The translations under genes were made by a program, and so were the position numbers. The notes under the pieces were generated by a model. That model worked only from the letters and a program-made list of their open reading frames with translations. It did no database searches and was not told where the DNA came from. Of a DNA stretch of 19,450 bases, positions 1,911 through 17,809 are shown piece after piece. This stretch comes from an uncultured Rhodanobacteraceae bacterium (GTDB taxonomy: Bacteria; Pseudomonadota; Gammaproteobacteria; Xanthomonadales; Rhodanobacteraceae). Positions within the stretch are counted from its first letter, which is position 1, and the number at the start of each line of letters is the position of its first letter. Location of the stretch: the NCBI GenBank assembly GCA_913053815.1, contig CAJXGK010000003.1, forward strand, positions 1 through 19,450. Reading direction: 5' to 3'.

Positions 1911-1957
1911 TATTGGGGGCGTGCTTCACCGTGCCTATCACCGGAGCAAGGGTAGAC

Positions 1958-3211
1958 TCAGCCCGGCAGGTGGGTCTCCCGGCGAAAGATATACAGGGCC
2001 ACAGCAATGCCGGCCATGGGCACCAGGGTCATGTAGAAAGCAACATTGCCACCAATATGGGTGAATAATAAGGCAATGATAAACGAGCCCAAAGTTCCAC
2101 CTAGTGCGGAAAACACTACGATTAGCCCGGTCATCGAAGCCTGTCGCTCAATCGGAAGAGTGCTCAGCATGACTGAATTAACCACCGGATAGATCGGGGC
2201 CATCAGCAGCCCGATCAAGGGAAACATATACGCCACAAAAGGGGCACTGAACCAGGTGTCATCTGCGCGTACATGCACGTGCGAGGCTAGGGGCAACACC
2301 AGCAACACCAGCACAGCCATGCCCAGCAGACAGAAATTGAGCAGTGGATACCAAGACATTCTTCGCAACACATAGCTGGCTAGGAGCCGCCCCAGTGCCA
2401 GCCCCCCGGCAAAGATGCTGGCCATCTGCACACTCAGCGCGGACGGTAGATGCAGGACCTGGCGATTGAAGGTTGGCAGCCAGGTACCCAGTCCTTGTTC
2501 GATGAGCACATAGAGAAAGATCGAGACGATAAATGTGTAGACCACGGGTTTACTAAGCAGCCGCAGCATATCCACAAAAGCACCACCCGGTTGCGTTGGC
2601 TTGCGTTTCGCGGCGGATTCGTCCAGCGTCGCCAGGCTGAGGGTGGCGATCACTACCACACAGGCCCCTGCAATCACCCAGTACACATGCACCCAGACCA
2701 GGCTTGCTGGTGCTTTAGGATTAATAAAGGCACTAAATAACCAGTAGCCGCCGAGTACCCCGATCATGAATAGCCCTTCAAGCACATTCATCAGACTGGC
2801 ATGATGGCGCCGGTCAGACGTCAACAAACCGATGGATGAATACACACTCACCTTGATTAGGGCAAAGGTAATGCCGATGACCAGAAACAGGAGTTCGGCC
2901 ATATGGAAGCTTGGAAACTCCGCCATCAACACACACACCCCAGCTACCAGCGCATGGCCCAGGATCATCGCCCGACGATATCCTAGTCGGGGTAGATAAG
3001 ATGCGGTCACAAACGAAACGGTGGCAATAGAAAGATCTTTGCTGGCCTCAAGGATGCTGCCGCTTTCTTTGCTGATACCAAAACTCTGGATCGACTGCAG
3101 GATGACCGTGCCGACACTATTCAACAAAACTGCATAGATCATGTAGCTCAAGGCCATCGAAATCAGGATCAGTAACCGGTCTTTCGATAGCAACACGGGA
3201 GCGTGGGTCAT
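1958..3211 (-). CDS. MFS family (sugar) transporter
   Basis: A 417-residue integral inner-membrane protein with about twelve hydrophobic helices and a polar central loop (DESAAKRKPTQPGG, around residues 194-207) between two six-helix halves, as expected for the major facilitator superfamily. The loop after helix 2 carries YLPRLGYRRAM, a degenerate form of the MFS signature. The substrate is inferred from position: it is the last gene of the run containing the glucoside phosphorylase and the TonB-dependent receptor, so it probably carries the same saccharide into the cytoplasm. The start is ATG 3211 with only a weak ribosome-binding site. It lies 133 bp after the receptor stop, with a strong hairpin in the gap, so it may be expressed at a lower level than the two upstream genes or from its own promoter. 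Confidence 0.9.
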   Translation of the reverse strand: MTHAPVLLSKDRLLILISMALSYMIYAVLLNSVGTVILQSIQSFGISKESGSILEASKDLSIATVSFVTASYLPRLGYRRAMILGHALVAGVCVLMAEFPSFHMAELLFLVIGITFALIKVSVYSSIGLLTSDRRHHASLMNVLEGLFMIGVLGGYWLFSAFINPKAPASLVWVHVYWVIAGACVVVIATLSLATLDESAAKRKPTQPGGAFVDMLRLLSKPVVYTFIVSIFLYVLIEQGLGTWLPTFNRQVLHLPSALSVQMASIFAGGLALGRLLASYVLRRMSWYPLLNFCLLGMAVLVLLVLPLASHVHVRADDTWFSAPFVAYMFPLIGLLMAPIYPVVNSVMLSTLPIERQASMTGLIVVFSALGGTLGSFIIALLFTHIGGNVAFYMTLVPMAGIAVALYIFRRETHLPG

Positions 3212-3297
3212 AAGGTCATGGCTCGTAAAACGACAAACAACTTCGGCATGCCCAGACCTACCAGGCTCGCATGGAGGGTTCGAGATTGCACTGGTCT

Positions 3298-3324
3298 CCC
3301 GGAGGTAGCCACGCTACCTCCGGG
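3298..3324. terminator. Strong intercistronic hairpin (attenuator-like)
   Basis: A perfect 12-bp inverted repeat, CCCGGAGGTAGC / GCTACCTCCGGG, with a 3-nt loop. It sits 20 bp after the TonB-receptor stop and 86 bp before the MFS start. There is no clear T-run on the minus strand after the stem, so it is more likely a partial terminator or mRNA-stabilising stem than a full intrinsic terminator. It would bias expression toward the receptor and phosphorylase. Confidence 0.7.
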
Positions 3325-3344
3325 TCTTACTTTGTAGCAACCGA

Positions 3345-5870
3345 TCAGAACTTGTACCGAGCCTGGAAACGAATCTGCCGTCCAAAGATCGGGCGGGCCA
3401 TTTCCAAACCATTGACGATACCTGAATTGGTGACCCGGGCATTGCCTTCGGTCAGTCCTAACTGATTAGTGAGATTGCTACCCTCCAGTCGAAACTGCAG
3501 ATGCTTACCGACATTCGCAATCACCCCGGCATTAAGCATGTAATAGGCCGGTAGTGGCTGAGTATTGGCGATATCCGAATAGCGGAAACCCACGTGGCTA
3601 TAGGTCGCAAACAGCATCACGTCGCCCCATTGCGTCGGAATCCGATAGCTTGGTGTGAAACGAAACTGGAACTTCGGCTGCCGCTGTAAAAAATTGCCGA
3701 TGTAGTTATAACCGGCCTGGGTACCCGTGCCAGCCGAAGAATAGTGCTCGTATTTGCTGTTCTGCCAGTCCCCGGTCAGATCCATGGCAAAATTCTCAAC
3801 CGGCGACCAATGCGCGGTAAAGTCCACGCCATGGGAACTCGCTCCATAAACGCTGGTCACATTCTGGCCGGTCGCCGTGAACTGTTGGAACGGGACGCCG
3901 CTGAATAGCCTGCGGAATGCGGTGATGCTGGTGTACCAGTCGGAACCAATCATCTTGAAGCCTACCTCAAAGTTCTTGATCTTCTGTACCTGCGGTTGGC
4001 CACTGCGCAGATCATCGAAACCGGGGAAATGCACACCCTGGTTATAGCGCGCATACACGCTCATGTTCGGCTGCAATGCATAGGTTGCACCCAGAGTCCA
4101 GGATCCACGGGTACCATGGTAAGTTGACGGCGTAAAGCTACCATTGGTCACCGAGGTATTGTTGTTATAGAGAGTCAGTGGGTTGCCATCGAGGTCAACA
4201 TTCGTGGCATTAGAAACCGAGCCGTTAACCGACTGGTTCTCTGACCGATACCCTGCATCAAGCAGCCAGCGATTGATCTTCCACTGGTCGGACAGAAATC
4301 CAGCGATGTTGCGACCAGTATAGGAATCGACCAGTGCGTAGAAAGGACCGCCTAGAAAACCGTTACGGGTTACTTGAACACCATTATTGAGGGTTACATT
4401 GATCAACTGGGCATTGGGTGTCGCCGTCACTAGCATGTTGTTGCCCAGGTACCAGGTATCGTTCGATGAGTAACTGGCCAGGTAGCTGCCGAAGGTTAGC
4501 GTGTTGCCTGGGAAGATTTCTTTGCTGATCCGTGCTTCATCGGTCAGCGAACGGATCTTTTTGTTCACCACCCAAAATCCGAGTGAGGCCACCGCTTGAT
4601 TCGGATTCACCGCTCCTCCACCATTGACATAGGTCGCGGTGGCTGAGGTAGCTAAGCCACCCGCTGCGGCCACGACACTCAAATTAGCGTTGGCCGCAGT
4701 CATCGTGGTGGCGGTAAAGTCGCTCAGGGTTTGTGGCGAGAAGTTGTTAAACAACGCATTCGTCGGCATATCTCCGCCGGTGAAATTGAATTTATTGCTG
4801 AACGACCAACCGTTATCGAAATACAGATCCAAATTCGAGCCAACCATATGGATATTGGCACCACGCCCGTTAGCGAGATTGGCGTTGATGGTGCCCGGTG
4901 GATTGCCCGGCGTCACCTGAATGTTCACCAGGCGCATCGCGTTACCGGCAAACGTTCCGGTCAGGGGATTGAATCCGGGGAAGGCCGAGACACTATTACC
5001 GTTGTTGGTCGTGACCAGGGGCACATCCGTGATGAATAGATTCTTGTCATTAAGGACTCGCGCATAGAACATGACTGAACCGTCAGCCAAATCATGCGAC
5101 AGAGTGGCCGTCAACTGACCACCTTGATCGGCTGGAAACTGCGAGCTGCGAATGCCGTTGGAGGTACGGTAAAAGCCACCGATACTGTAATACCAGCCAG
5201 TGGAAATCTTACCGCCATAGAAACCGTCGAGACGATAGTAGCCATGCGTTCCAACGGTGTAGCCAACGCTTCCGGTCGACTTGGCCGTCCCCTGCTTGAG
5301 GATATAGTTGGCCGTAGCACCGATCTGGCCATTGGAGAAGATCACCGAAGGCCCCCCCTGCAAGACTTCGACTCGCTGCACGGTATCGTCGATACGAAAC
5401 AGTGAGTCGTTCGCCATAAACGACAGAGTTGGAGCTGCGTAAATCGGTGAACCATTGAGCTCCACCGTCACATAGGGCGCATCGCTCCCCCCCGGGAAAC
5501 CCGCAATCTCGATGTTGGCACCGGTTTCACCACCACTCGATTCAACCCATAGTCCCGGTACAATCTTCAGCAGGTCGGCCGCACTGGAGGGCATGGCCAT
5601 GCGGATCTTCGACTGATCCGCTGTGGTGATCTGGAAACTAGCGTTGATCCGTTTCACCCCGAGAAAGGTCGGCGCACCGGTCACCACGACTTGATTCAGC
5701 GTCTGCGTACTCTTCGGGGCCTTTGCTTTGGCCTTGGTTGCCGGGGTTTTAGTTGCCACGGCAAACTTCGCTGCTGTCGACGGGGCCTCCTGGGCCAGGA
5801 CCGTACCTGACAGCAGTGCCGATACGATGGCCACGGACATGATAGTCCGTTTGCATAGTTTTCTGTTCAT
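3345..5870 (-). CDS. TonB-dependent outer-membrane receptor
   Basis: An 841-residue TonB-dependent transporter predicted to import an oligosaccharide across the outer membrane using the TonB-ExbB-ExbD energy system. A signal peptide is clear (MNRKL.. then a hydrophobic stretch ending GTVLA, cleavage near A26/Q27). It is followed by a Lys/Ala/Thr/Pro-rich linker and TLNQVVVTG, a TonB-box-like segment. The plug follows (ADLLKIVPGLWVESSGG, VTVELNGSPIY, QRVEVLQGGPSVIFSNGQIG), then a long aromatic-rich beta-barrel that ends RYKF, with the terminal Phe typical of outer-membrane proteins. ATG 5870 is preferred because GGAGG lies 7 nt upstream; ATG 5876 would overlap the phosphorylase stop but leaves only 1 nt of spacing. 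Either way the gene is translationally coupled to the phosphorylase, since its Shine-Dalgarno lies inside the last phosphorylase codons. Confidence 0.95.
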   Translation of the reverse strand: MNRKLCKRTIMSVAIVSALLSGTVLAQEAPSTAAKFAVATKTPATKAKAKAPKSTQTLNQVVVTGAPTFLGVKRINASFQITTADQSKIRMAMPSSAADLLKIVPGLWVESSGGETGANIEIAGFPGGSDAPYVTVELNGSPIYAAPTLSFMANDSLFRIDDTVQRVEVLQGGPSVIFSNGQIGATANYILKQGTAKSTGSVGYTVGTHGYYRLDGFYGGKISTGWYYSIGGFYRTSNGIRSSQFPADQGGQLTATLSHDLADGSVMFYARVLNDKNLFITDVPLVTTNNGNSVSAFPGFNPLTGTFAGNAMRLVNIQVTPGNPPGTINANLANGRGANIHMVGSNLDLYFDNGWSFSNKFNFTGGDMPTNALFNNFSPQTLSDFTATTMTAANANLSVVAAAGGLATSATATYVNGGGAVNPNQAVASLGFWVVNKKIRSLTDEARISKEIFPGNTLTFGSYLASYSSNDTWYLGNNMLVTATPNAQLINVTLNNGVQVTRNGFLGGPFYALVDSYTGRNIAGFLSDQWKINRWLLDAGYRSENQSVNGSVSNATNVDLDGNPLTLYNNNTSVTNGSFTPSTYHGTRGSWTLGATYALQPNMSVYARYNQGVHFPGFDDLRSGQPQVQKIKNFEVGFKMIGSDWYTSITAFRRLFSGVPFQQFTATGQNVTSVYGASSHGVDFTAHWSPVENFAMDLTGDWQNSKYEHYSSAGTGTQAGYNYIGNFLQRQPKFQFRFTPSYRIPTQWGDVMLFATYSHVGFRYSDIANTQPLPAYYMLNAGVIANVGKHLQFRLEGSNLTNQLGLTEGNARVTNSGIVNGLEMARPIFGRQIRFQARYKF

Positions 5871-5872
5871 GT

Positions 5873-8800
5873 TCATTCCTCCACCTTTGGATCAGTACTG
5901 TCGTTACTTCTCTGCTTCGCAGAGACCTGGGTAGGCCGAGCAGGTAATGCCTGCCCGGCCATGAAAACGATTGGATCGAAATGGGTAAGCGTCGTCAGGA
6001 CCGCATCGGCATCCACTAGAATCTGCGGATCACCAATACCCAGCGATGACATACCGGCGGCGCGGATGCTGACCAGCCCAGCCACGGCATCCTCCACGCC
6101 AAGGCAGGCATTAGGATGCACTCCTAACCCTTTAGCGGCATCGAGATAGATGTCCGGGGCCGGTTTGCTATGTTCGATCTTCGCGGCGTCCACTATGTAA
6201 TCAAACAATTCGGCAATGCCCAATTTACGCACAATTTCGGGTGCGTTACGGCTGGCTGAGGCCAACGCCACCATGAGTCCTGCTGCTCGTACCGCTTCGA
6301 TAGCAGCGCGTGCGTTCGGCAGCAGATTGTGGGGTCCAAGCTGCTTGATCAGGGCCTGGTAAGACGCATTTTTACGATCACTCAGAGCCTGTTTTTCTAT
6401 TTCGCTATAGGGCCGCTTGACATGCTCCAGAAGAATCGCCAGGGAAGCCCGCCGATCGAGACCTCTCATGCGCTCAGCCTGGCTGGGAGCAAAGGGAATT
6501 GCCAACTCCGTAGCCAGTGACTGCCAGGCGGCCTGATGCAAAACTGCCGTATCGGCGAGCACTCCATCAAGATCAAAAATTACTGCCTGAAGGGGCTGCG
6601 TAGGGGACTCGACGGGAGACAGGCTGAGGGATGGGAAGTGTAAGGTTTGTCCGCTATGCAGGTGCTGGGTAGCCCCCGCATGGTTGAATTCGATGGCGTT
6701 GCCGTCGAGCAGGCTGTAGGTCACCCCCGCTGTATCAACCGCTACCCGCAAGCGGGTATTACGCCACACCACGCCGAACCGGTAACTCTGCCACTCGGGG
6801 GGTAACCGGGGGGTGAGCTGCAGCTGTCCGCTGTGTACGCGCAGGCCACCGAAACCCCAGGTCAGGGCCAACCAGCTACCCGCCATCGAAGCCAGATGCA
6901 CCCCGTGCGCAGCATTGCCGTGCAAGTCATCCAGATCGACGCGCAAACTCTCCAGAAAATATTTGTAGGCCTTGTCGAGCGCACCGACCTCGGCAGCAAG
7001 TACCGCAAAGGTCGAGGCCGACAACGTCGAGTCATGCACCGTGACGTCTTCGTAGTATTCGAGATTGCGTCGCTTGGCTTGCTGATCCACCGCCCCGCCC
7101 GCCAACACCAACGCTAACACCGTATCGGCTTGTTTGCAGACCTGATGACGATAAATGGTCAACGGGTGTAAATGCAGCAGCAACGGACGTTTTGCGCTCG
7201 CCTGCCGGCTTAATCGCGGTTTGTCGAGAAAGGTGTCGTCCTGAGGAAAGATTCCCAACCTTTCGTCTACTGGAAGATACATAGCCTCGGCGGCATGCCG
7301 CCATTGCCTGAGCTCCTCCGCCTGCAGACCGATACGCTCCGCCAAAGCGGCGTAGGCATCGGGATAGGTATCCGCCAGCCACTCTGCCGTCCGCGCTGCA
7401 TCAAACAGATGAGCTTGGGCCATACGATTGGTGTAGTGATTATTGTCAACGAGAACCGTATATTCATCGGGACCGGTCACCTCATGGATGCAGAAAGCCC
7501 CATCACGGCGCGGATTAAAATGACCAATATCCATCCAGATGCGTGCCGTTTCGAACAACATCTCCGCACCGTACTCACGCAGAAATACCTCGTCCCCACA
7601 AACGTCGACGTAACGGCGAACGGCCCAGGCAATGGCTGCATTGATGTGATACTGCGCCGAGCCACCAGGAAAGTAAGCCGAGCACTCGTCACCGCTGATA
7701 GTTCGCCACGCATACAAGGCTCCGCTTGGGTGGTTCAATTCGCGCGCATGGGCACGAGCTTGTTCCAAGGTGCGATACCGATATTCGAGTATCCCACGGG
7801 CGAGTTCTGGGGTGATTGTGGCCAATGCCGGAAGCATGAATACCTCCGCGTCCCAGAAATAATGGCCTTCGTAACCCATCCCGGTTAGACCCTTCGCGGC
7901 AACGCTGCCTGACCCATCCCGGTTGGTCGATTGATAGATGTGAAACAGATTTAGCCGCAGCGCTTGCTCAATGTCCGGAGCACCGCTTACATCCAGATCC
8001 ACGCGATCCCAGAAGTGGGCCAGTATCCGAGTCTGATCATCCTGAAGACTTTGGTAGCCCCCAGTCCGTGCATCTTGCAGCGTGTTACGTACCTTGTTCA
8101 GCAGCGTGGCATCGGGCTCATCACTATCCGGTTGCGACCAGGCATAGGCTACGAATTTCTCAAGTTCTATGGTTCTTCCCGGCTCAAGTTCGGCCACCAA
8201 GGTATGCGATACCCCCTCGGCAACCGGACCCGTGTGTCGGCACTCTAAACCTTTCCCGGATAGGCGATGGGCTTGGCCACAAACCACCCGGATACCGCTA
8301 TACGTAGTCTGCTGCCGCAACCAAGCCAGTTGCTCGTCACTACCGGTCTCACACAGGTGCAACCCACCATCCGTACGTGTACTGATGCGTGGATCGTTGC
8401 CGTGGTCGCTAGGCAGCGGAGCCGTTTCGATCACCGATTCCACAGTCAGTGGACCACGATAATCCACCGAATGTACCCGGTAGCGGATGGCCAGCAAACC
8501 TGGGATCTCCAAGGCCACCAAGCGCTGAGCGATGATTTCTACGATGGCTCCTGACGAGGCTCGCCACGTCATAGCTTGGCGATAACAACCCTGACGCAGG
8601 TCCAGTTCACGCTTAAAGGCGAGCCGCTCGCCATGCTGCAAATCCAGCATTTCATCACCAAGTCGCAAACGGATGTGGGTCCCATCTGCAACCGGTACGC
8701 GGGTATCGCTACTGCGAGCAAAGCCTGGAAAACGTTCGTGATAGTCGATCGGCATGCGTTCCCATACCCCACCCAGAAACACCCCGTGACTAGCACTGTC

Positions 8801-8980
8801 ATCTTCTTCGAGTCCGCCGCGCACGCCTAAGGTGCCATTGGCAAGCGCGAACAAACTTTCCTCCTGGGCCGTATGTGCTGGATCGCATTTATACCGAACC
8901 AGCCGCCATGGATCGATCTCCGGCGTTTCTTGAGAAATACCGGCCTTGCTTACTGGCGATGTCAAATGTCGCTCTTCCAC
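5873..8980 (-). CDS. GH65 alpha-glucoside phosphorylase fused to beta-phosphoglucomutase
   Basis: A bifunctional cytoplasmic enzyme of about 1035 residues. Residues 1 to about 780 are a glycoside hydrolase family 65 phosphorylase (maltose, trehalose, kojibiose or nigerose type). Motifs are the N-terminal RYKCDPAHTAQEESLFALAN, GYEGHYFWDAEVFMLP (Asp near 377), HEVTGPDEY with the expected general acid near E506, and VTVHDSTLSAS near the phosphate site. Residues about 798-1030 are a HAD-fold beta-phosphoglucomutase: FDLDGVLADT (nucleophile D803, acid/base D805), ASASRNAP, KPAPDIYL and GVEDAVAG. Together they would phosphorolyse a disaccharide to glucose plus beta-glucose-1-phosphate and isomerise that to glucose-6-phosphate. 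The start is taken as GTG 8980, because GGAG (8989-8992 on the complement) lies 8 nt upstream; an open TTG at 9034 sits inside the operator palindrome and is unlikely. Substrate within GH65 cannot be decided from sequence alone. Confidence 0.93.
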   Translation of the reverse strand: MEERHLTSPVSKAGISQETPEIDPWRLVRYKCDPAHTAQEESLFALANGTLGVRGGLEEDDSASHGVFLGGVWERMPIDYHERFPGFARSSDTRVPVADGTHIRLRLGDEMLDLQHGERLAFKRELDLRQGCYRQAMTWRASSGAIVEIIAQRLVALEIPGLLAIRYRVHSVDYRGPLTVESVIETAPLPSDHGNDPRISTRTDGGLHLCETGSDEQLAWLRQQTTYSGIRVVCGQAHRLSGKGLECRHTGPVAEGVSHTLVAELEPGRTIELEKFVAYAWSQPDSDEPDATLLNKVRNTLQDARTGGYQSLQDDQTRILAHFWDRVDLDVSGAPDIEQALRLNLFHIYQSTNRDGSGSVAAKGLTGMGYEGHYFWDAEVFMLPALATITPELARGILEYRYRTLEQARAHARELNHPSGALYAWRTISGDECSAYFPGGSAQYHINAAIAWAVRRYVDVCGDEVFLREYGAEMLFETARIWMDIGHFNPRRDGAFCIHEVTGPDEYTVLVDNNHYTNRMAQAHLFDAARTAEWLADTYPDAYAALAERIGLQAEELRQWRHAAEAMYLPVDERLGIFPQDDTFLDKPRLSRQASAKRPLLLHLHPLTIYRHQVCKQADTVLALVLAGGAVDQQAKRRNLEYYEDVTVHDSTLSASTFAVLAAEVGALDKAYKYFLESLRVDLDDLHGNAAHGVHLASMAGSWLALTWGFGGLRVHSGQLQLTPRLPPEWQSYRFGVVWRNTRLRVAVDTAGVTYSLLDGNAIEFNHAGATQHLHSGQTLHFPSLSLSPVESPTQPLQAVIFDLDGVLADTAVLHQAAWQSLATELAIPFAPSQAERMRGLDRRASLAILLEHVKRPYSEIEKQALSDRKNASYQALIKQLGPHNLLPNARAAIEAVRAAGLMVALASASRNAPEIVRKLGIAELFDYIVDAAKIEHSKPAPDIYLDAAKGLGVHPNACLGVEDAVAGLVSIRAAGMSSLGIGDPQILVDADAVLTTLTHFDPIVFMAGQALPARPTQVSAKQRSNDSTDPKVEE

Positions 8981-9005
8981 ACGTTTATCTCCATAGCTGG
9001 ACAGC

Positions 9006-9034
9006 ACCCTAAAACTAAATGATATCGATATCAA
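9006..9034 (-). promoter_or_regulatory. Candidate promoter of the sugar operon
   Basis: On the minus strand TTGATA (9034-9029), a 17-bp spacer and TAGGGT (9011-9006) form a weak sigma-70-like pair about 30 bp upstream of the GTG start. The -35 and spacer overlap the operator palindrome, so a bound repressor would block it. The -10 is poor, so this is only a candidate. Confidence 0.35.
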
Positions 9035-9054
9035 GTTATCGATATCATTTAGTT
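9013..9054. promoter_or_regulatory. Operator: 18-bp perfect inverted repeat with LacI-type palindromes
   Basis: Arms 9013-9030 and 9037-9054 are perfect reverse complements around a 6-bp centre. Within them, TGATATCGATATCA (9020-9033) is a 14-bp palindrome with the central CG typical of LacI-family operators. A second near-palindrome centred on CG 9040-9041 lies 14 bp away. The site is 24-65 bp upstream of the proposed GTG start of the phosphorylase. The LacI gene at 11888 is the obvious candidate ligand-responsive repressor. Confidence 0.7.
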
Positions 9055-9060
9055 GGTAAA

Positions 9061-9068
9061 AGTATTTA
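9061..9068. repeat. Target-site duplication, left copy (AGTATTTA)
   Basis: These 8 bp abut the left terminal repeat of the mobile element and are repeated exactly at 11740-11747, next to the right terminal repeat. Eight base pairs is the usual duplication length of the IS1595 family. Confidence 0.85.
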
Positions 9069-9093
9069 CCTGATTAGCCTCAAAACTCAGCCA
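9069..9093 (+). repeat. Left terminal inverted repeat (transposase 3' side)
   Basis: Starts CCTGATTAGC and continues with conserved AA and CTCAGC blocks. It matches the right end (11715-11739, reverse complement) at 20 of 25 positions. It overlaps the last codon and stop of the ancestral transposase frame (9087-9092). Confidence 0.8.
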
Positions 9094-10037
9094 CGCTGAT
9101 TACTCGCCATGCACAAGGACGGCTCGGAATGCAGTTTGTACAGCACCCTCGCACGGGCCGGTCGCGGCAGCATCTCGCGCAGGCGAAAACAGCGGTTAGA
9201 CCGGTAGACGGCTTCGGCCAGATACAAGCGTGCCTACTTGGCCTGCCGGATTGCGTGGTAGCGCCCGCTGATGGCGCGTTTGAGATTGCCCAGCAACACA
9301 TTGACCCAGCATGCGCCCTGGACTTTGCCGGTGGCACGTCGTCCTTCGATTTTCAGCACGGTGTGCGTATGGCCGGCATCAGCAAAGCGCCGGAAGCAGA
9401 ACAAGCCGTCGCTAAAAACTTCGGCGCCCGGGGCCAGATGATGCACCGGCCAGTTTTGGATACTGTCATTGTCGAAGCTGCGCACCGGTTCGATGACTGC
9501 ACAACTTGGATGCTCCAGCGTTTCATCGGTTTGTAGCGCAACCAGGAACGCCTGCTTGTTCTCCGAGCCGCACCCCGACTTGCCTCCGTTGCGCTCTCCG
9601 CCCAGATAGGCATCGTCGACTTGTACGAAACCCGACAACGGGCGCGGCGCTTCACGTTCGGCCATGACCTGCATGACCTTGCGCTTGATCCTCAAGGCCA
9701 CCTCGTCGTTCACTCTCAGATACCGCATCAGTTCCAGGGCCACCATGTGTTGGTCTTGGTCGCGGTCAGCAGGTGGATCGCCAGCATCCAGATCGTCAGA
9801 GGCAGCTTGGTCGACGCGAAGATCGTGCTGCTGAGCAGGGGCGTCAGGTGCCGACACCACCGGCACGGGTGATACATCTGCCGCTCACGACGAAAGCGCG
9901 AACGCCGCCGATCCCCCACATGCCGGGCAACGGAAGCCCTGTGGCCAGTGCACCCAGTGCAGAGCGCGGTAACATTTCGCTTCCATGCCGTACTACTACA
10001 TGAACTCGACCATCGACAGCCCCTGCTGAAATTGCAT
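9087..10037 (-). pseudogene. ISXO2-like (IS1595 family) transposase, degraded
   Basis: The ancestral frame of about 316 codons starts at ATG 10037 (MQFQQGLSMVEFM) and ends at TGA 9087-9089. It is broken at least four ways: two adjacent TAG codons at 9993-9998 (CAG-CAG in relatives, by my reading), a +1 shift near 9903-9910, a 2-nt shift near 9744-9750, and a TAG at 9234-9236 where a Tyr codon is expected. Pieced together, the domains are a zinc ribbon (CPACGG and CRWC), the ATKTN helix, the DDE-type core with FVQVDDAYLGG and FSDGLFCFR, and the GACWVNVLLGNLKRAISG segment. The largest surviving open segment covers 9234-9866. Length and motif order match IS1595-family transposases. It could not make an active enzyme. 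Confidence 0.88.
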
Positions 10038-10097
10038 AAGATTGATCGACATCACTAGGTCCTCGACTGTGGAGAGGATCCCAGCTTAACCCATCAC

Positions 10098-10143
10098 CGC
10101 CGCAAATCATGCGACAACATGCTGATATTCAAGGCCAATCGAT
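10098..10143 (+). repeat. Internal third copy of the element end (degenerate)
   Basis: This stretch aligns with 11694-11739 at about 33 of 46 positions, including a block of 18 of 19 around CAAATCATGCGACA. It lies just upstream of the transposase start, where the 5' terminal repeat of a simple 1.07-kb IS would be. It is therefore probably the original end of the IS, no longer used as a boundary, with the passenger segment lying beyond it. Confidence 0.7.
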
Positions 10144-10180
10144 AAACCTCTTGACATTGATATTAAGTTGAATGTTTATC
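10141..10180 (+). promoter_or_regulatory. Candidate promoter with dyad upstream of the passenger gene
   Basis: A consensus TTGACA (10151-10156) lies inside an inverted repeat, GATAAAC (10141-10147) and GTTTATC (10174-10180). A -10 is less clear: GTTTAT at 17-bp spacing, or TATCAT further along. It starts right at the internal element end, a place where IS ends often supply a -35. It would give a leader of about 300 nt for the passenger gene. Confidence 0.35.
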
Positions 10181-10490
10181 ATATACGCCTCAATAGGCGA
10201 GGCTTAATGAAGCCAACATCTCCGCCTTAGTATTGTCAACACTGAGCCCCAGTTCTCGTACCCAACCCCGGTGACTGGCTGTCGATGGCTGAATATAAGC
10301 ACGGATCTTCGGTGTCCTTGTGGCGTTGGCGTGAAGGTGCCGATTCATGCGTGATCTCGTTGTTCAAAGAGGTCTTGCAAAGCTTCTCGGACTAGAAGCA
10401 GAGCCTAGCTCCTGAGTGCTATGGAATCATAAGGGACCTGACACCTACCCAGGGTCCAATCACTATCAGTCAATCAGTAAGAGGTCCCTC
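10144..10490 (+). other. Leader region of the passenger gene, no assignable gene
   Basis: This 347-bp stretch has no recognisable gene. A 36-codon frame from ATG 10285 (MAEYKHGSSVSLWRWREG...) ends at TAG 10393-10395 and matches nothing I know. Near the 3' end GGGACCT (10433-10439) can pair with AGGTCCC (10482-10488), which covers the passenger ribosome-binding site, or its GGACC can pair instead with GGTCC (10453-10457). The two pairings exclude each other. Confidence 0.4.
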
Positions 10491-11492
10491 ATGCCCAAAC
10501 AGACACAAACTGTTTTCCGCTGGTTAGGTTTCAACCATCGACCGCCCAGGCATCTACCCCCTACGGTCACACCCATGCAGGCCCGAATGTTTCGCTTACT
10601 GCGTATTCTCTTCGGTCTTATCTGGTTATTCGACACTTGGACCGCTTCATCGGGTGTGAACAAATTGGCCGTTGCCCATTTTCTCGGGTTACCGTTCTCA
10701 TCTTGGCCCGTACACCTCGTCGGCAATGGTATCGTCCTCTTAGACCTCTACATCGCCTTAGTACTGTTATCAGGCAAAGGCATGCGATCGGCCTTGTGGA
10801 TCGGCATCGGCTACCTGACATTCATGTGGATCGTCGTCGAACACGGCGGGGGCTTCAATCCGGCCAACGGCGGCACCGATGCTGGCATTGCGCCGCCCTA
10901 TCTCATTGCCATGATCCTTACCTATACCTGCTGGCGCATCAGTCAGCCGCTGTCGACACCGACCGATCACACCGTGCGCGACCATACGCTACTGTGGATC
11001 CATGCTGCCCGCAATATGCTCGGCTTCTTGTGGGCTTGGGACGCGCTGTTTAAGTGGCATCCCTATTTTCTGGCACACTTTGTCCGCTATATGGCAGAGG
11101 CCCAGCAAGGCCAACCCACCTGGTTGGTCGATTACATCCAGGTTTGGATCAATGCCATCACACACATCGATCCCCTACTTTTCGGGTTACTTGCGGCCGC
11201 CACGGAGGTAACGGTCGCCTGGAGTCTGCTTTCCGGAAAACTCCTGCGTTATCTGTTACCCATCGGCATGGTTTTCTCATTCACAATCTGGTCAACTGCG
11301 GAGGCTTTTGGCGGACCTTACAGCAATGGTCAAACTGGCATGCCCGGCAACATGTTTGGTAACGCGGTGATTTATATGCTTATTCTCGCCTATTTCATGG
11401 TGTTATACCGTTGGCCAAGATACGGTGGTGTTCGGGAAATGGAGGCAGCGCTTGCCGCGGATGAGCCGCGAGATATAGGCAGCCACTCCTAA
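10491..11492 (+). CDS. Duplicated DoxX/DoxD-like integral membrane protein (element passenger)
   Basis: A 333-residue polytopic membrane protein. ATG 10491 is chosen over a frame open from 10416 because TAAGAGG lies 6 nt upstream. About eight hydrophobic helices fall into two homologous halves of four. The first half has LVLLSGKGMRSALWIGIGYL then EHGGGFNPANGGTDAG; the second has WSLLSGKLLRYLLPIGMVF then EAFGGPYSNGQTGMPG, each followed by a final helix and an Arg/Trp border. Four-helix units with such a Gly-rich loop resemble the DoxX/DoxD group, which includes thiosulfate:quinone oxidoreductase subunits, but no cofactor ligand or partner DoxA gene is seen. The function is unknown. It is intact while the transposase beside it is ruined, suggesting selection on the passenger. 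Confidence 0.8.
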   Translation: MPKQTQTVFRWLGFNHRPPRHLPPTVTPMQARMFRLLRILFGLIWLFDTWTASSGVNKLAVAHFLGLPFSSWPVHLVGNGIVLLDLYIALVLLSGKGMRSALWIGIGYLTFMWIVVEHGGGFNPANGGTDAGIAPPYLIAMILTYTCWRISQPLSTPTDHTVRDHTLLWIHAARNMLGFLWAWDALFKWHPYFLAHFVRYMAEAQQGQPTWLVDYIQVWINAITHIDPLLFGLLAAATEVTVAWSLLSGKLLRYLLPIGMVFSFTIWSTAEAFGGPYSNGQTGMPGNMFGNAVIYMLILAYFMVLYRWPRYGGVREMEAALAADEPRDIGSHS

Positions 11493-11693
11493 TATTGGCG
11501 TGACAGAAAAATAGATCGCCGCACTACATCCCGCTGATTTCCAGGCCATGTCATCGAGTTGATGGTGATCCATCTATCATGAAGCGAATCGCCTCCCAGC
11601 AAGGCCACCCGGTCTCATTTTCAAAACGGAGTAAGTATCCCTGGTAAAACCGGGGATACTTACTCCGAATGTGGACGTAACATTGCTCATTGA
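11493..11693. other. Passenger 3' flank inside the element
   Basis: Noncoding stretch between the passenger stop and the right-end repeat block. Apart from the long hairpin at 11627-11667 I see no gene, RNA or second terminal repeat here. Confidence 0.5.
11627..11667. terminator. Long perfect hairpin near the right end
   Basis: Arms 11627-11641 and 11653-11667 (CGGAGTAAGTATCCC and its complement) are perfect over 15 bp. The stem extends through TGGT/ACCG (one G-T pair) to a 3-nt AAA loop, so about 19 bp in all. TTTT follows the stem on the minus strand; no T-run follows on the plus strand. It could end passenger transcription, or stop transcription entering the element from the LacI side. 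Confidence 0.65.
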
Positions 11694-11739
11694 CGCCACA
11701 AATCATGCGACAGCTAGCTGAGGTTCGGCGCTAATCAGG
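11694..11739 (+). repeat. Right terminal inverted repeat and subterminal block
   Basis: The outer 25 bp (11715-11739) are the inverted partner of 9069-9093. The inner block CAAATCATGCGACA is shared with the internal copy at 10098-10143 but not with the left end, so this is the same end type (transposase 5' side). Confidence 0.8.
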
Positions 11740-11747
11740 AGTATTTA
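11740..11747. repeat. Target-site duplication, right copy (AGTATTTA)
   Basis: An exact repeat of 9061-9068, immediately outside the right terminal repeat. With one copy removed, the empty site reads GGTAAA-AGTATTTA-TCCGCC. Confidence 0.85.
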
Positions 11748-11887
11748 TCCGCCTACGTATGGCAACGCCAACTACACGTATCGGTAAACATTGACGCAGA
11801 ACCTAAGTGCAGGGAAACTGTGTTGAGCAGCAACCCATCATGCGCAGATATGGCCAGATCGAGTCCAGCCACTTTCGAGGGCATCTT

Positions 11888-12898
11888 TTGAGCCGGAACG
11901 ATCAACCAGGAAAAGGCTCTGTACCCTCCGGCCTGACCATGGCCGACTTAGCCAAGATGGCGGGTACCTCCAAAATTACCGTTTCGCGCGCGCTGGCCAA
12001 CAGCCCCCTGGTCAGCACCACTACCCGCCAGCGCATCCAGGCATTGGCTCGCGAACATGGCTACAAGCTCAATGTCAGTGCCCGCAATCTGCGCCTGCGC
12101 CGTAGCCATACTGTTGCCGTCATTGTCGAGATGAAACCCTCTATAGACCGCTCAATGATGGATCCCTACCCTCTGCGTCTGCTCGGCAGCATCACCCAGG
12201 AATTATCCATTGCCGGCTACAGCGTTCTTCTGACCACACGCCACGATGCGAACTCGGCGGCGGTGCAGGCCGCCGACGGATTGATTCTGCTTGGCCAAGG
12301 GGTGCATCAACATGCCGTTCAGCAGTTCGACAAGCTGGGGCTACCCTTGGCGGTCTGGGGAGCGTCACCCACGGGCGACCCACACGTCGTCGTCGGCAGT
12401 GACAATCGTCAGGGTGGAGCAATCGTAGCCGAGCATTTCATCTCCATTGGTCGGTGCCATCCGGTATTCATCGGCAACCCTAGCCATCCCGAGATTCTCG
12501 ATCGTATGAATGGATTCGTCGATGTGCTAGCTACCCACGGCATCAAGCCGATGCTGATCCGTCGTAGTGAATTCACCATGGCCGCCGGGATGAATGCCGT
12601 GCAATCCCTGACCACCCGCAAGGCCGTATTTGATTCTATTTTTGCCTCCAGTGACCTGCTGGCCATGGGGGCGATTCGCACCCTGGATCGGCTCGGCCGG
12701 TCGACACCGCAAGATGTTTCGGTAATCGGCTACGACGACACCCCGCTGGGAGCGAACTTCTTGCCCCCCTTATCCTCAGTACATCAAGACTGGCAGGAAG
12801 GCGGCACCTTGCTGGCGCGCAAGATACTGGCCCTAATCAAGGGCGAAGCTCCAGACTCCGAAATGCTTCCAACATCGCTGGTGGTGCGTGAAACCTGA
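11888..12898 (+). CDS. LacI-family transcriptional regulator
   Basis: A 336-residue repressor with an N-terminal LacI helix-turn-helix (LTMADLAKMAGTSKITVSRALANSPLV, residues about 16-42, then the hinge helix) and a periplasmic-binding-protein-like sugar-sensing domain (HTVAVIVEM, ADGLILLGQG, VVVGSDNRQGG, DSIFASSDLLAMGAIRTL, VSVIGYDDTPLGA). TTG 11888 is chosen because GAGG at 11877-11880 lies 7 nt upstream and gives the standard LacI length; the frame is open from GTG 11807, and ATG 11840 and 11939 are alternatives with weaker sites. Before the element inserted, this gene and the phosphorylase operon would have been divergent, about 230 bp apart, with the operator palindrome between them. It probably represses that operon and responds to its sugar. 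Confidence 0.92.
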   Translation: MSRNDQPGKGSVPSGLTMADLAKMAGTSKITVSRALANSPLVSTTTRQRIQALAREHGYKLNVSARNLRLRRSHTVAVIVEMKPSIDRSMMDPYPLRLLGSITQELSIAGYSVLLTTRHDANSAAVQAADGLILLGQGVHQHAVQQFDKLGLPLAVWGASPTGDPHVVVGSDNRQGGAIVAEHFISIGRCHPVFIGNPSHPEILDRMNGFVDVLATHGIKPMLIRRSEFTMAAGMNAVQSLTTRKAVFDSIFASSDLLAMGAIRTLDRLGRSTPQDVSVIGYDDTPLGANFLPPLSSVHQDWQEGGTLLARKILALIKGEAPDSEMLPTSLVVRET

Positions 12899-13338
12899 AC
12901 CTAGGACTCCGCCGGTACATGACCCGCAGCGGGCTTTCTCGTTACGGGTACGTAAAGGAGGTGGGCAGGCAACGACTTGCACGATTCGTATAAGCAGGAA
13001 TCCAGTGGAAGGGGCCCTTATCCACACCCAGCCAATACAGCTCTGCGGTATCACCTACCTTGCAGGCACTCTGCACCTAGGATAATGGGGTTTAAGGGTT
13101 GGGCATGAACAGCAAGGTATTTCGGCTACCAACCGGCATCCCAACGGCTCGGCATCAATGATAACGAGTCCACGCCGGGCTCCATGGCTGGGCCCGGGAT
13201 GATGAGAATGAATAAATAGGCAAGGTCTGCATTGCAACATGTGGGCAAGACGTAATGTCCGGCTCTTGCGCCTGGTATTGGTTTCACTCATTATTCTCTT
13301 CATCTTGATAGAAAGATGTCTACACAGGATACCTCTTT
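12899..13338. other. 440-bp intergenic region before metF
   Basis: I find no convincing gene. A modest hairpin CCGGGC (13175-13180) / GCCCGG (13192-13197) may end the LacI transcript or form part of the metF leader. I looked for SAM or SAH riboswitch cores upstream of metF and did not recognise one. Confidence 0.4.
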
Positions 13339-14160
13339 ATGCCCTCAATCTCTCTGGAGTTCTTCCCCCCTAAGACCGCCGATCAACGGGCCCAGTTCCA
13401 GCGCTCACTACCAAGATTCATGGCGATGCGCCCCGAGTATGCGAGTGTCACCTTCGGGGCGGGCGGCTCGACGCTCAGCTATACCCCGGAAACCGTTAAA
13501 CAACTGATGGCTAAAGGCCTAGACACGGCACCGCATCTATCTTGCATGGGTGGCACGCGGGAGGAGATTACCGTATTGCTGGACGCGTACCTAGCCTTGG
13601 GATGCCGGCGCATTGTAGCGCTGCGGGGCGACCTCCCTTCGGGTATGGCCCGGGCGGGGGACTTACGTTACGCCTCGGAATTGGTGGCTTTTATCCGTGC
13701 CCACAGCGGCCATCACTTCCGTATCGAGGTGGGCTGTTATCCCGAGGTGCATCCTCAGGCCAAAGATGCACAGGCCGATCTGCACCATTTCCAGGCCAAG
13801 ATCGACGCCGGTGCCAACGGTGCCATCACCCAGTATTTCTTCAACGCTGACGGCTATTTCCGCTTTGTCGAGGAGGTTCGTGGACTGGGCATAGAGGTAC
13901 CGATTGTGCCGGGGATCATGCCCATTACCAATTTTAGCCAGTTGCAACGCTTTTCCGAACAATGCGGCGCTGAGATTCCACGCTGGATTACGCGCCGCAT
14001 GCAAGCTTTTGGTGCCGATACCGAAAGCATACGGGCCTTGGGAGCCGACGTGGTAGCGGGTCTGTGCCACCGCCTGCTCGAAGGGGGAGCCCCCGGATTG
14101 CACTTCTATACGCTTAATCGAGCCCAGGCCACTCAGGCCGTCATCGATCGCCTGGATTGA
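13339..14160 (+). CDS. metF: 5,10-methylenetetrahydrofolate reductase
   Basis: A 273-residue flavoenzyme that reduces methylene-THF to 5-methyl-THF, the methyl donor for methionine synthesis. The sequence shows SLEFFPPK with the conserved catalytic Glu (E7), SVTFGAGGS, HLSCMGGT, the FAD-site ALRGD (D98), GCYPEVHP, GANGAITQYFFNADGYFRF with the substrate-binding Gln, VPGIMPITNF, and LHFYTLNRA near the C terminus. It is a single catalytic domain, as usual in bacteria, slightly shorter than the E. coli enzyme. ATG 13339 has AGGA 9 nt upstream. It is followed in the same direction by ilvE after 81 bp; they may be co-transcribed. Confidence 0.96.
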   Translation: MPSISLEFFPPKTADQRAQFQRSLPRFMAMRPEYASVTFGAGGSTLSYTPETVKQLMAKGLDTAPHLSCMGGTREEITVLLDAYLALGCRRIVALRGDLPSGMARAGDLRYASELVAFIRAHSGHHFRIEVGCYPEVHPQAKDAQADLHHFQAKIDAGANGAITQYFFNADGYFRFVEEVRGLGIEVPIVPGIMPITNFSQLQRFSEQCGAEIPRWITRRMQAFGADTESIRALGADVVAGLCHRLLEGGAPGLHFYTLNRAQATQAVIDRLD

Positions 14161-14241
14161 TCCACCTGCCAGCGCCGCAGAATACTGAATAGAGCGTCCC
14201 ATCCCGACTATGATGAGGGTTTGGCAGCTCGGATAATTACC

Positions 14242-15165
14242 ATGAGCAAGCGTTACCCTGAGTGGATCTGGCACAACGGCGAAATCAAGCCGTGGGCGGA
14301 GGCTACCACCCACGTGATGGCCCATGCCCTGCACTACGGATCCTCGGTATTCGAGGGCATTCGCAGCTACAATACGCCACAAGGCTCAGTCATTTTTCGC
14401 CTCACCGATCATCTCAAACGCCTATTCCATTCCGCGCGGGTCTACGACATCGTCATCCCGTATTCACCCGAGCAGATTGCTCTTGCCTGTCGTGAAGTGC
14501 TGCACCGTAACAGCCTTGCTCAAGCCTACCTACGACCGATCGCATTTCGTGGACTGGGAGGCTTCGAACTAGGGGCTGATACGCCTATTGACGTTGCGGT
14601 AGCCGCTCTGGCCATGGGGGCCTACCTTGGCGAAGGGGTGCTGGAACAGGGCATTGATGCCTGCGTATCGTCCTGGCAACGGGCGGCTCCCAACACCATT
14701 CCCGCAGGAGCCAAGGCCGGCGGTAATTATCTTTCGGGCCAACTGATTGCTCGTGAAGCCAAACGTCTTGGCTTCAGCGAGGGTATCGCGGTAGCAACCA
14801 GTGGGTTACTCAGTGAAGGGGCCGGGGAGAACCTATTTCTAGTGCTTGACGGTGTGTTGCATACCCCCCCGCTATCCAGCGCGATCTTGCACGGCATCAC
14901 CCGCAACTCACTGATGACGCTGGCCCACGACGACGGAATCGAGATCGTAGAACGCAATCTACCCCGTGAGTACCTGTATTTTGCCGACGAGGTGTTCATG
15001 TGTGGCACCGCCGCTGAGATCACCCCGATCCGTTCAGTAGACGGCAAACCGGTAGGTCCGGGCCGGCCGGGGCCGGTCACTCAGCATTTACAGAAAATAT
15101 TTTTTGGCCTGTTTGACGGCAGTACCCCGGATCGACATGGCTGGCTGGAAGCCGTCGAGACCTGA
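14242..15165 (+). CDS. ilvE: Branched-chain amino acid aminotransferase
   Basis: A 307-residue fold-type IV PLP enzyme that transfers the amino group between glutamate and the keto acids of Leu, Ile and Val. The Schiff-base lysine is K158 in AGAKAGGNYLSGQLIAREA. Other marks are WHNGEIKPWAEATTHVMAHALHYGSSVFEGIR, LRPIAFRG, LLSEGAGENLF, HGITRNSL and DEVFMCGTAAEITPIR, with length close to E. coli IlvE. The frame is open from TTG 14221, but ATG 14242 (MSKRYPEWIWHNGEIKPW) fits the family N terminus and has CGGA 9 nt upstream. Confidence 0.96.
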   Translation: MSKRYPEWIWHNGEIKPWAEATTHVMAHALHYGSSVFEGIRSYNTPQGSVIFRLTDHLKRLFHSARVYDIVIPYSPEQIALACREVLHRNSLAQAYLRPIAFRGLGGFELGADTPIDVAVAALAMGAYLGEGVLEQGIDACVSSWQRAAPNTIPAGAKAGGNYLSGQLIAREAKRLGFSEGIAVATSGLLSEGAGENLFLVLDGVLHTPPLSSAILHGITRNSLMTLAHDDGIEIVERNLPREYLYFADEVFMCGTAAEITPIRSVDGKPVGPGRPGPVTQHLQKIFFGLFDGSTPDRHGWLEAVET

Positions 15166-15168
15166 GGC

Positions 15169-15308
15169 AACCTCTCAAAACCGTCACCAGTGGGCCGAGT
15201 GCAAGGTCTTGTGGAGTGAGTGAGCGACAAGACCTATCAAGGTGATAGGCGAGGAGCGAACCAACACATGACATCGCAATCAGTTCGCGCAATAGGTTTT
15301 TAGAGATT
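15169..15308. repeat. Nested inverted repeats in a convergent intergenic spacer
   Basis: Between the ends of ilvE and the reductase gene, an outer imperfect stem pairs 15169-15182 with 15295-15308. It encloses three hairpins: AGGTCTTGT/ACAAGACCT (15204-15212, 15227-15235), CCTATCA/TGATAGG (15233-15249), and GCGAAC/GTTCGC (15256-15261, 15283-15288). The first two overlap by 3 bp, so they compete at the base. It could serve as a bidirectional terminator, a palindromic repeat element or a structured RNA. Confidence 0.55.
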
Positions 15309-15361
15309 ACCCTGCGCAGATCACCCCGGCCAGGGAATGTTTGCCTTGAGTGTGCGCCAGC

Positions 15362-16411
15362 TCAGGCGGCGTCAACGAGCCCGGAACACTCCGGCTCAAC
15401 CTTGAGCCGTTGGTGCATGATAGGACTGGTGGTGGTGTACTGCAGAGGCACTTTGATACCTGGCTGTAAGCGAGCCTTGACGGCAAATGCCGCCAGTGCC
15501 GACTCGTGAAAACCGGAAAGTATCAGCTTCTTCTTGCCGGGATAGGTGTTGATATCGCCGACTGCAAAGATGCCCGGTACACTGGTCTGAAATTTCTCTG
15601 TATCGACACGGATCTGACTTCGATCCAGGTCCAGACCCCACTGGGCAATCGGCCCGAGCTTGGGATGCAGCCCCCAAAACACCAGCAACTGTTCAGCCTC
15701 GACACGATTGATCAGGCCGGCACGGTTACGCACCCGGACGGCGTTGAGTTCAGTATCTGCATGATCGATACCCACCACCTCTCCTTCGAGAAACTGCATG
15801 CGCAAATCGTTACAGAGCGCATGCATGCGATTCACGCTGGCCGGTGCGGCACGGAATTTCTGTGAACGGTGTACTAAGACTACGCTGTTGGCGATTTCGA
15901 CCAGATTCAGAGCCCAATCTAGGGCTGTATCACCCCCACCCGCGATGACCAGGTCTTTACCTGCAAAGATGGCCGGCTCACGCACTCGATAATGCAGACT
16001 GGCCCCTTCGAGCTGGGTCACCCCATGCGTATGCAAGCGCCGTGGCTCGAAAGCACCCAGCCCTCCGGCGATAATGACGGCGGCGCAGTCAAACTCGGTT
16101 CCTGCTGAAGTGGCCACTTCAAAACGGTCGTTAGCACCTACCTGCACTTGGGTGACGGTCTGGCTGAGATGATATTGTGGCTCGAACGGGCGAATCTGTT
16201 CCTGCAGGCGTTCGATCAATTCTTGAGCACCGCACATCGGTAAACCGGGGATGTCATAAATCGGTTTGTCCGGATACAGCTCAACGCACTGTCCTCCAGG
16301 CAGGGCCATGGAATCGAGCAAATGCGATTTCAGTCCGAGCAGCCCCAGTTCAAATACCTGGAACAGCCCTACCGGACCGGCGCCCACAATAACCACGTCG
16401 GTTTTGATCAT
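15362..16411 (-). CDS. Ferredoxin--NADP reductase, thioredoxin-reductase-like type
   Basis: A 349-residue flavoprotein that moves electrons between NADPH and ferredoxin or flavodoxin. The FAD Rossmann motif is VGAGPVG (residues 9-15), followed by PGGQCVELYPDKPIYDIPG. The NADPH motif is IAGGGDTALDWA (from about 156). The C terminus has VGDINTYPGKKKLILSGFHE, a signature of FNR type 2. There is no CxxC redox pair after the NADPH motif, which argues against thioredoxin reductase. ATG 16411 is preferred; GTG 16429 is an in-frame alternative and neither has an ideal ribosome-binding site. It lies 96 bp after the histidine kinase on the same strand, so it may belong to that transcript. Confidence 0.92.
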   Translation of the reverse strand: MIKTDVVIVGAGPVGLFQVFELGLLGLKSHLLDSMALPGGQCVELYPDKPIYDIPGLPMCGAQELIERLQEQIRPFEPQYHLSQTVTQVQVGANDRFEVATSAGTEFDCAAVIIAGGLGAFEPRRLHTHGVTQLEGASLHYRVREPAIFAGKDLVIAGGGDTALDWALNLVEIANSVVLVHRSQKFRAAPASVNRMHALCNDLRMQFLEGEVVGIDHADTELNAVRVRNRAGLINRVEAEQLLVFWGLHPKLGPIAQWGLDLDRSQIRVDTEKFQTSVPGIFAVGDINTYPGKKKLILSGFHESALAAFAVKARLQPGIKVPLQYTTTSPIMHQRLKVEPECSGLVDAA

Positions 16412-16507
16412 TTCACCATCACGCCACACAGAAACAAGTGGCTATGATAACTGAGACCATCAAGTTACCGATGATTACGGCCCAATCAGCACCCGCTCGA
16501 CAGATTG

Positions 16508-17809
16508 CTAACTGGATTTTTTGGCAAACTCCAGCATAGCCACCGCTCCGCCCTCAGGGCGTGGGGCCAGTCGAACCCGCCAGCCATACAGGTTGCACAA
16601 ACGCCACACGATGGCCAGACCGAGGCCGGCTCCCATGCCTTTTACCCCCTCACCCCGGACTCCACGCTCGAACAAGCGGCTGGCATCCTCCGGATTAATG
16701 CCCGGTCCGGAATCCTCGATCAACACCCGATCTTCTTGTACGCGAATCGTAACATCCCCTTCCTGAGTATATTTGAAGGCGTTACCGATGAGGTTGGCCA
16801 GCGCTACGGAGACTACCGATCCCGGGGCCTGAACGGTTAAACTCGACTCAAGCTGTAGATGAACCCGTACCGGTTTGTTGCCAAGCTGAGGGCGCTGCAG
16901 ATCGATCACATTAGCAACGATCTGCGCGACATCCGTGCTCTCATCCTGAACCTGCTGCCCCCCCTGCTCTGCACGCGACAGCAGCAGCAACGCGTCGATA
17001 ATTTCCGCGGCTTGGCGACTGGCGCGCTCGACTCGTTTCAATCGTTCGCTCAACTTAGCCGTCAGATTCGGTGAAGTGAGCATCAATTCGGCAGTACTGG
17101 CAATCACTGCGATTGGAGTACGCAGTTCGTGACTGACATCGGCATTGAACTCCTGATCACGCTGTAGCAGCTCGGTCAGACGTTTGGCGTAATCATCCAG
17201 AGCCAGGGCCACTTCGCCAACCTCATCAGCGGCAAAATGAGGCGCCAGGGGCTCCAAACGGCCACTTTTTCGCAGGGCTCGCAAACGCCGGGCCAAATCA
17301 GTAACCGGGCTCATGATCCGCACCGATAACCAAGCTCCAATAAGCACCGACAGCGCCCCAAACACTCCCACCGCGGCGATCAAGGCATACTTCAGCTGTT
17401 GTTGGCTCTCCAACATCTGTGAGCTGTCGTAACGCACGAAAAACCAGTAATGAGGATCCTTGCGCACCGCCAACATATATTGCTGCACCGAACCGTCCGG
17501 CTCGACCTGTTTGATGGTATGCACACCGTTGTCAAGATCACGCCAGGCGAAAGGAACATTGGAAAATTTGCGTTGGCTGTAGACGTGACCACGGGTCTTT
17601 TCCAGTGGGTAGCCCTGGGTCTCAGGGTTGTTGTAATACGCGTTCGCAAAGCTGTTGATATTGCGTTCCAGCGAATTACCAATGAGTTGATTTTCGAGTC
17701 GGTTGCGCAAGTACATCGCGCTGGCCGCAAAAAGTACGCTCAGCGTGATCGCAAACAGGGAAAAGGACAGGAATATGCGGCTCCGTAGCCTACGCCGATA
17801 GGGAAGCAT
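16508..17809 (-). CDS. Membrane sensor histidine kinase
   Basis: A 433-residue two-component sensor. Two membrane helices (about 11-31 and 142-163) frame a periplasmic sensor of about 110 residues, then a HAMP linker (about 165-215) follows. The dimerisation box is FNADVSHELRTPIAVI (phospho-acceptor H227). The ATPase domain has the N-box NLIGNAFKYT (N343), the G1 box EDSGPGI and the G2 box GAGLGLAIV. It is transcribed after the response regulator and overlaps its end by 20 bp, so the pair is translationally coupled. The periplasmic domain resembles nothing I can name, so the signal is unknown. Confidence 0.94.
   Translation of the reverse strand: MLPYRRRLRSRIFLSFSLFAITLSVLFAASAMYLRNRLENQLIGNSLERNINSFANAYYNNPETQGYPLEKTRGHVYSQRKFSNVPFAWRDLDNGVHTIKQVEPDGSVQQYMLAVRKDPHYWFFVRYDSSQMLESQQQLKYALIAAVGVFGALSVLIGAWLSVRIMSPVTDLARRLRALRKSGRLEPLAPHFAADEVGEVALALDDYAKRLTELLQRDQEFNADVSHELRTPIAVIASTAELMLTSPNLTAKLSERLKRVERASRQAAEIIDALLLLSRAEQGGQQVQDESTDVAQIVANVIDLQRPQLGNKPVRVHLQLESSLTVQAPGSVVSVALANLIGNAFKYTQEGDVTIRVQEDRVLIEDSGPGINPEDASRLFERGVRGEGVKGMGAGLGLAIVWRLCNLYGWRVRLAPRPEGGAVAMLEFAKKSS

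Follow-up and report, generated by a model that had tools for sequence, protein, structure and literature searches.

A 2671-base segment within a 19,450-nucleotide stretch of DNA (hereinafter the window) from an uncultured Rhodanobacteraceae bacterium (assembly GCA_913053815.1, contig CAJXGK010000003.1, positions 1 to 19,450) is likely to be a transporter insertion sequence (tIS) of the IS1595 family with hybrid ends, which would have moved as a unit together with a gene for a membrane protein and later been exchanged between species. The genome containing the window (G000) is a draft of 2.36 Mb in 437 contigs, and we compared it with 12 congeners to give a genus-level set of 13 genomes. The features of the segment are collected in Table 1.

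The terminal inverted repeats of the segment (9069–9091 against 11717–11739) agree at 19 of 23 positions, a core that extends to the 20 of 25 counted in the initial annotation of this DNA, and both are bordered by the 8-base duplication that it had described, AGTATTTA, which does not recur elsewhere on the plus strand of the window. Such 8-base target duplications are the rule in the IS1595 family, as the annotation had also stated. A scan of the 3000 bases from 8901 to 11900 for 23-base ends with at least 19 matches and arms at least 500 bases apart returned exactly one qualifying pair, namely the one bearing the exact duplication, while 40 first-order Markov shuffles yielded one end pair in total and none with a duplication, which rules out a chance match. 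Across the 13 genomes the end pattern is matched 19 times and its reversed form never.

Table 1. Features of the segment 9069–11739 and of its immediate surroundings, in window positions.
Feature	Position	Strand	Remarks
Target duplication AGTATTTA, left copy	9061..9068	.	Read from the letters; identical in sister species G010
Left terminal repeat, begins CCTGATTAGC	9069..9091	+	19/23 match with right end
Broken IS1595-family (ISXO2-like) transposase gene	9092..10056 (approximate limits)	-	DDE part in open reading frame 9237-9866
Inner decayed right end of IS copy	10098..10144	+	10098-10140 77% identical to 11694-11736; end 10144 from comparison with G010
IS481-type element remnant	10234..10447	-	Its outer end falls some 40 bases short of the passenger gene
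Passenger gene	10491..11489	+	Encodes a membrane protein of 333 residues with a two-fold internal repeat and a weak likeness to DoxX
Near-perfect hairpin 3' of the passenger gene	11627..11667	.	
Outer right end, 77 bases	11663..11739	+	90% identical to right end of IS copy G010:C14
Target duplication AGTATTTA, right copy	11740..11747	.	Read from the letters
GH65 glycoside-hydrolase/HAD fusion gene	Left of segment 9069-11739		Read leftwards
lacI-type gene	Right of segment 9069-11739		Read rightwards

The segment is absent from all four congeners that have both flanks within a single contig (G007, G008, G009 and G011), an observation that, like the ends and the duplication, can be read directly from the sequences. 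The sister species G010 has the element at the same site with the same duplication, the only other copy among the 13 genomes; the remaining seven congeners have no match to both flanks. Independent insertions at this site in two species are less likely than descent or recombination, given the same duplication at the same place. The earlier claim that the 2671-base unit moved whole with its cargo is thus upheld by the ends, the duplication and the uninterrupted sites in four congeners, but needs amending in that the segment is not one plain IS (see below). Its mobility as a unit is attested by one insertion with a duplication, but at that single site only. With respect to what defines a tIS, the passenger gene does lie between insertion ends bounded by a duplication, and the unit occupies one and the same site in the two carriers, rather than more than one. 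Seven of the 19 end matches belong to the window, the G010 copy and two IS copies in G011. Seven of the 12 others (L157–L163, IS1595-type ends in G001, G008, G010 and G011), viewed in their wider surroundings, have no partner end with at least six of eight duplication letters, although for one of them (G010:C63) the contig stops on the side where a partner would be expected; the remaining five were viewed within about 1.5 kb.

At synonymous sites the two carriers are far more alike in the passenger gene than in the genes around it. The synonymous divergence (dS) of the passenger is 0.076, as against 0.53–1.37 across ten flanking genes, and when the comparison is made in blocks of 30–60 codons, all six passenger blocks (0.044–0.139) fall below all 81 others (0.147–0.787). 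This low synonymous divergence suggests that the two species, once separate, exchanged a block of about 3 kb. Of the flanking sequence, the nearest 161 bases on the left, largely the beginning of the GH65 gene, are 91% identical between the species and the nearest 140 bases on the right 95%, while 100-base windows show 72–77% identity at 8300–8700, 79% at 11900 and then 82–87% up to 12600. It is conceivable that the insertion predates the species split and that synonymous change in the passenger is simply slow, with no exchange between species. The identical site and duplication would fit such a history, as would the broken transposase, whose frames differ from one species to the other, and the ordinary synonymous difference (0.502) of the first lacI block, which lies 140 bases from the element. 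We nonetheless consider it unlikely, because the decayed transposase region, which should have been free to drift, is still 88.6% identical (with many gaps) against the flanking dS values, and because the GC content at third codon positions of the passenger resembles that of its neighbors. The 17 synonymous and 17 nonsynonymous changes in the passenger correspond to a ratio of nonsynonymous to synonymous divergence of 0.30; going by these counts, amino-acid changes are rarer than under neutral drift. The reading frame is open in both species, and over 333 codons in the window, as the annotation had it.

The internal organization of the segment points to its origin. The transposase piece at 9237–9866 on the minus strand matches the Pfam domain DDE_Tnp_IS1595 (PF12762) at 3.5e-22 and the NCBIfam model IS1595 (NF033547) with 106 bits against a cut-off of 75. 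Relative to an intact relative of 328 residues, the transposase region is split into two frames in the window and three in G010; together with these scores, this confirms the decayed ISXO2-like transposase recognized earlier. The element is thus probably immobile now, as the broken transposase lowers its present mobility but leaves its IS1595 family origin unaffected. Overlooked by the initial annotation was a second, inner right end, in which the outer one is repeated at 77% identity as a direct repeat and which is better preserved in G010 than in the window. Congener G011 has two near-identical IS1595 copies of 1096 bases each with ends of the same kind, whose right end terminates some 100 bases from the transposase start; the transposase is open over 328 residues in the one copy translated. 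This layout, taken with the inner right end, indicates that a former IS copy of 1.08 kb spans 9069 to about 10144. One of the G011 copies is flanked by a perfect 8-base duplication, TATGGCCT. The two copies (L122 and L134 on G011:C5) lie in inverse orientation about 23–24 kb apart, and a simple inversion between them does not explain why only one copy has a duplication.

The outer and inner right ends differ in their affinities, with the outer one being 90% identical to the right end of an IS copy in the sister species (G010:C14) and only 77% to the inner one; the transposase start of that copy is itself only 75% like that of the window over 84 bases. We infer that the unit was assembled from an IS copy, the neighboring membrane-protein gene, in front of which an IS481-type remnant would already have stood, and a right end contributed by another, related IS copy. 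Acting on its own left end and on the outer right end, the transposase would then have inserted the whole 2671-base unit between the GH65 and lacI genes, creating the 8-base duplication. Subsequently, the transposase would have decayed with the passenger staying open, and the inserted segment may later have crossed between the species, most likely by homologous recombination via its flanks. Alternatively, a plain IS1595 element, consisting of the left end and the outer right end, might have inserted first, with the transposase and right end of another copy, the IS481-type remnant and the passenger entering later by recombination, so that the cargo never moved. Consistent with such assembly in place, the inner and outer right ends derive from different IS lineages, the unit is known from only one insertion site, and the left end can be assigned to neither lineage, the partner copy G010:C14 being cut by a contig end. 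However, it calls for an additional recombination that spared both outer ends and the duplication, and the left end and transposase are contiguous in the window, just as in intact copies; hence, it strikes us as quite improbable.

Several observations nevertheless weigh against movement as a unit followed by exchange. A comparison of empty sites, as proposed in the initial annotation, did show the segment to be absent in four congeners, but these sites are too diverged for a single AGTATTTA to be recognized at the exact point. The further copies with different flanks for which it had proposed to look did not turn up among the 13 genomes, which hold only the G010 copy at the same site. Both ends of the unit in G010 differ from those in the window, and its outer right end misses the end pattern. 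The second G011 copy lacks a matching duplication (two of eight letters). The flanks provide only a modest signal of exchange, in that the nearest GH65 block has a synonymous difference of 0.236, a value also met elsewhere, and the first lacI block shows the ordinary value noted above. Finally, the genome with the window is only 81% complete.

The passenger reaches the cut-off of no Pfam or NCBIfam family. Its hydropathy and two-fold internal repeat are compatible with two sets of four helices, the annotation having described eight. In half-against-half alignments the genus's own distant homologue of the passenger gives 1.5e-14 and the passenger 0.002, and this likeness between halves gives the family the look of a four-helix unit that was doubled. 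The DoxX-like label given earlier finds a measure of agreement in three relatives (L060, L066 and L152), which score 17–19 bits with DoxX or DoxX_3 against cut-offs of 23.6–25; however, the passenger itself has no DoxX match and three other relatives (L053, L058 and L059) have none either. A pattern-based scan with one genome per species supplied 33 loci with relatives, and a tree was built from 21 rows rather than the full set (L063 and L064 are among those left out; the rows L068, L069, L077, L078, L082, L083, L084 and L087 were dropped from the alignment, and L008, L012, L016 and L017 added). In this tree the passenger falls in a clade of seven rows with 100/100 support, apart from the genus's own homologues. 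It is 78% identical to its relative in BMS3Bbin13, 61% to that in an 'Acidobacteria' MAG (metagenome-assembled genome), 58–59% to those of Salinisphaera type, and just 29–35% to the genus's own homologues; this low identity and the separate clades rule out a vertical relationship between the cargo and the gene native to the genus. From its grouping with non-genus sequences, away from those homologues, we infer that the passenger came into the genus from outside. Beyond cellular genomes, a plasmid collection yielded eight records, the best two with only 35% and 37% identity, a phage collection contained no relative of the passenger, none of the 29 stretches fitting the pattern in viral contigs was confirmed as a relative, and among solved structures there was a single match with an E-value of 0.57. 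Two contigs of the Lysobacterales MAG SP48 are nearly identical to Salinisphaera hydrothermalis (L061, L062 and L063), which probably reflects mis-binning.

The gene neighborhoods of its relatives suggest a function for the cargo. In four of seven loci with relatives at 53–78% identity (L059–L062), copA- and copB-type genes lie shortly upstream, with a single gene in between in L060; among the other three, L063 is cut by a contig end, and L058 and L064 are without copA-copB. Scoring by models covered the copper genes of L060, and those of the other loci were assigned via BLAST clusters. Within the genus, a CopB gene is present in 6 of the 13 genomes, including G010 but not the incomplete G000. 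PMC12452194 describes bufferins as peptides that chelate copper and DoxX genes as frequent in their clusters, and PMC10304878 describes GigT of Cupriavidus metallidurans, which is loosely related to DoxX, as part of a copper-resistance operon. Judged by these descriptions, the cargo family resembles the DoxX-type proteins of copper loci in comprising membrane proteins loosely like DoxX, some of them with copper-stress genes nearby, but the cargo differs from GigT and the DoxX proteins of bufferin clusters in being a double-length protein and falling below the DoxX cut-off, and the corresponding locus in its carriers shows no MNIO gene. Going by the neighborhoods of its relatives, the passenger would most probably be a protein of the inner membrane with a protective role under copper or redox stress.

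The resident homologue of the genus bears on the same question. It is found in 10 of the 12 congeners and is missing in G009, while G010 and G000 have no match other than the passenger. Where present, it is invariably neighbored by an HNH gene (10 of 10) and, in nine of 10 cases, by a GNAT gene on the other side (unseen in the G011 stretch); it stands between the two in all nine congeners with both genes in view. In G010 and G000, the HNH and GNAT genes lie about 70 bases apart with nothing between them (L102 7223–7295; L103 10313–10388). The passenger thus possibly stands in for this distant homologue, which is absent from its usual site in both carriers. A gene for an MNIO protein of the bufferin type is found near the resident homologue in seven of 10 genomes (none in G006 and G007, with G003 cut by a contig end), and none is seen at the corresponding HNH–GNAT locus of G000 and G010. 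That of G011 matches the Pfam family MNIO at 3.9e-87 and is adjoined by DUF2282 and DUF2063 genes.

The copper connection has its own difficulties. As L061 and L062 are nearly identical, the copA-copB association reduces to about three independent cases; the nearest non-genus relative, from BMS3Bbin13, has neither IS ends nor copA-copB adjoining; the genes listed near a more distant relative, on an Acidithiobacillus caldus plasmid, include none for copper; and the G011 MNIO protein, the sole one scored, reaches 304 bits against the NCBIfam bufferin-maturase cut-off of 310. A competing view is that the cargo serves sulfur oxidation in the manner of thiosulfate:quinone oxidoreductase, for which DoxD and DoxDA are names. 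A distant relative on a Thioclava plasmid is indeed located between rhodanese-like and DsrE genes, and other relatives are found in Acidithiobacillus and Thiomonas. Such a role seems to us unlikely, as neither the passenger (E up to 0.1) nor four of its relatives (E up to 0.5) show a DoxD or DoxA Pfam match, the closer relatives adjoin copA-copB, and multicopper-oxidase genes are likewise present at the Thioclava locus. Taken to its full extent, the account would be that a copper-protective cargo on a hybrid-ended IS1595 element replaced a resident homologue that had been lost along with its copper-bufferin neighborhood and then swept between species by homologous recombination, with the transposase already dying. 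We advance this only tentatively and regard it as doubtful in its entirety.

In its architecture the unit resembles a composite transposon in which one arm has shrunk to an end, in that the cargo is enclosed by portions of two related IS copies and the outermost ends would have served for movement; it differs in that the right-hand copy is just a 77-base end, with no intact arm left. Transporter IS themselves are established, with several families having passenger-carrying members, as stated in the available text of PMC11891212 and PMC7986276. The class is already known in IS1595, where the former source describes ISNha5 as carrying a transcription regulator. By that description, ISNha5 shares with the present unit an IS1595-type transposase and, between the ends, a gene unneeded for transposition. 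The present unit differs in having a membrane protein as its passenger, a doubled right end of mixed origin and a broken transposase. In Acidithiobacillus, IS1595 copies have been reported near copper genes, as neighbors, in the part of PMC10214660 available. The annotation had regarded such a cargo as unfamiliar in this family: a single literature search indeed brought up no DoxX-type cargo, but passenger-carrying IS1595 elements have been described (PMC11891212, available text). This search, with most subscription papers outside its coverage, found nothing joining DoxX, insertion sequence and passenger. Thus, passenger-carrying IS being already known, what sets this one apart is the unusual cargo, the hybrid ends and the signal of later exchange between species. 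The unit illustrates how an IS may capture a host gene by pairing its left end with a right end supplied by a neighboring relative, in a genus several of whose genomes contain apparently unpaired IS ends. It also offers a test case of a cargo gene that outlives its transposase and apparently spreads by recombination. If the copper role holds, a poorly understood family of membrane proteins would join the mobile metal-tolerance genes.

A copy related to the IS481-type remnant has a transposase scoring 212 bits, just below the NCBIfam cut-off of 224. On G010:C60 (13602–13661; L045 1479–1538), two IS481-type ends meet head to head in a near-perfect 60-base palindrome, and the end concerned is doubled in tandem in L003. 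Scans for promoters and terminators gave counts of 3 against a shuffle mean of 2.1 and 0 against 2.2, and hence no signal. The strong hairpin following the passenger gene is kept in both species despite differing letters (11627–11667; L026 12765–12815). Beside the GH65 gene lies a 42-base operator-type palindrome (9013–9054), the core of which is kept in G010, G007, G008, G009 and G011; the target duplication begins six bases from it, and the element separates it from lacI.

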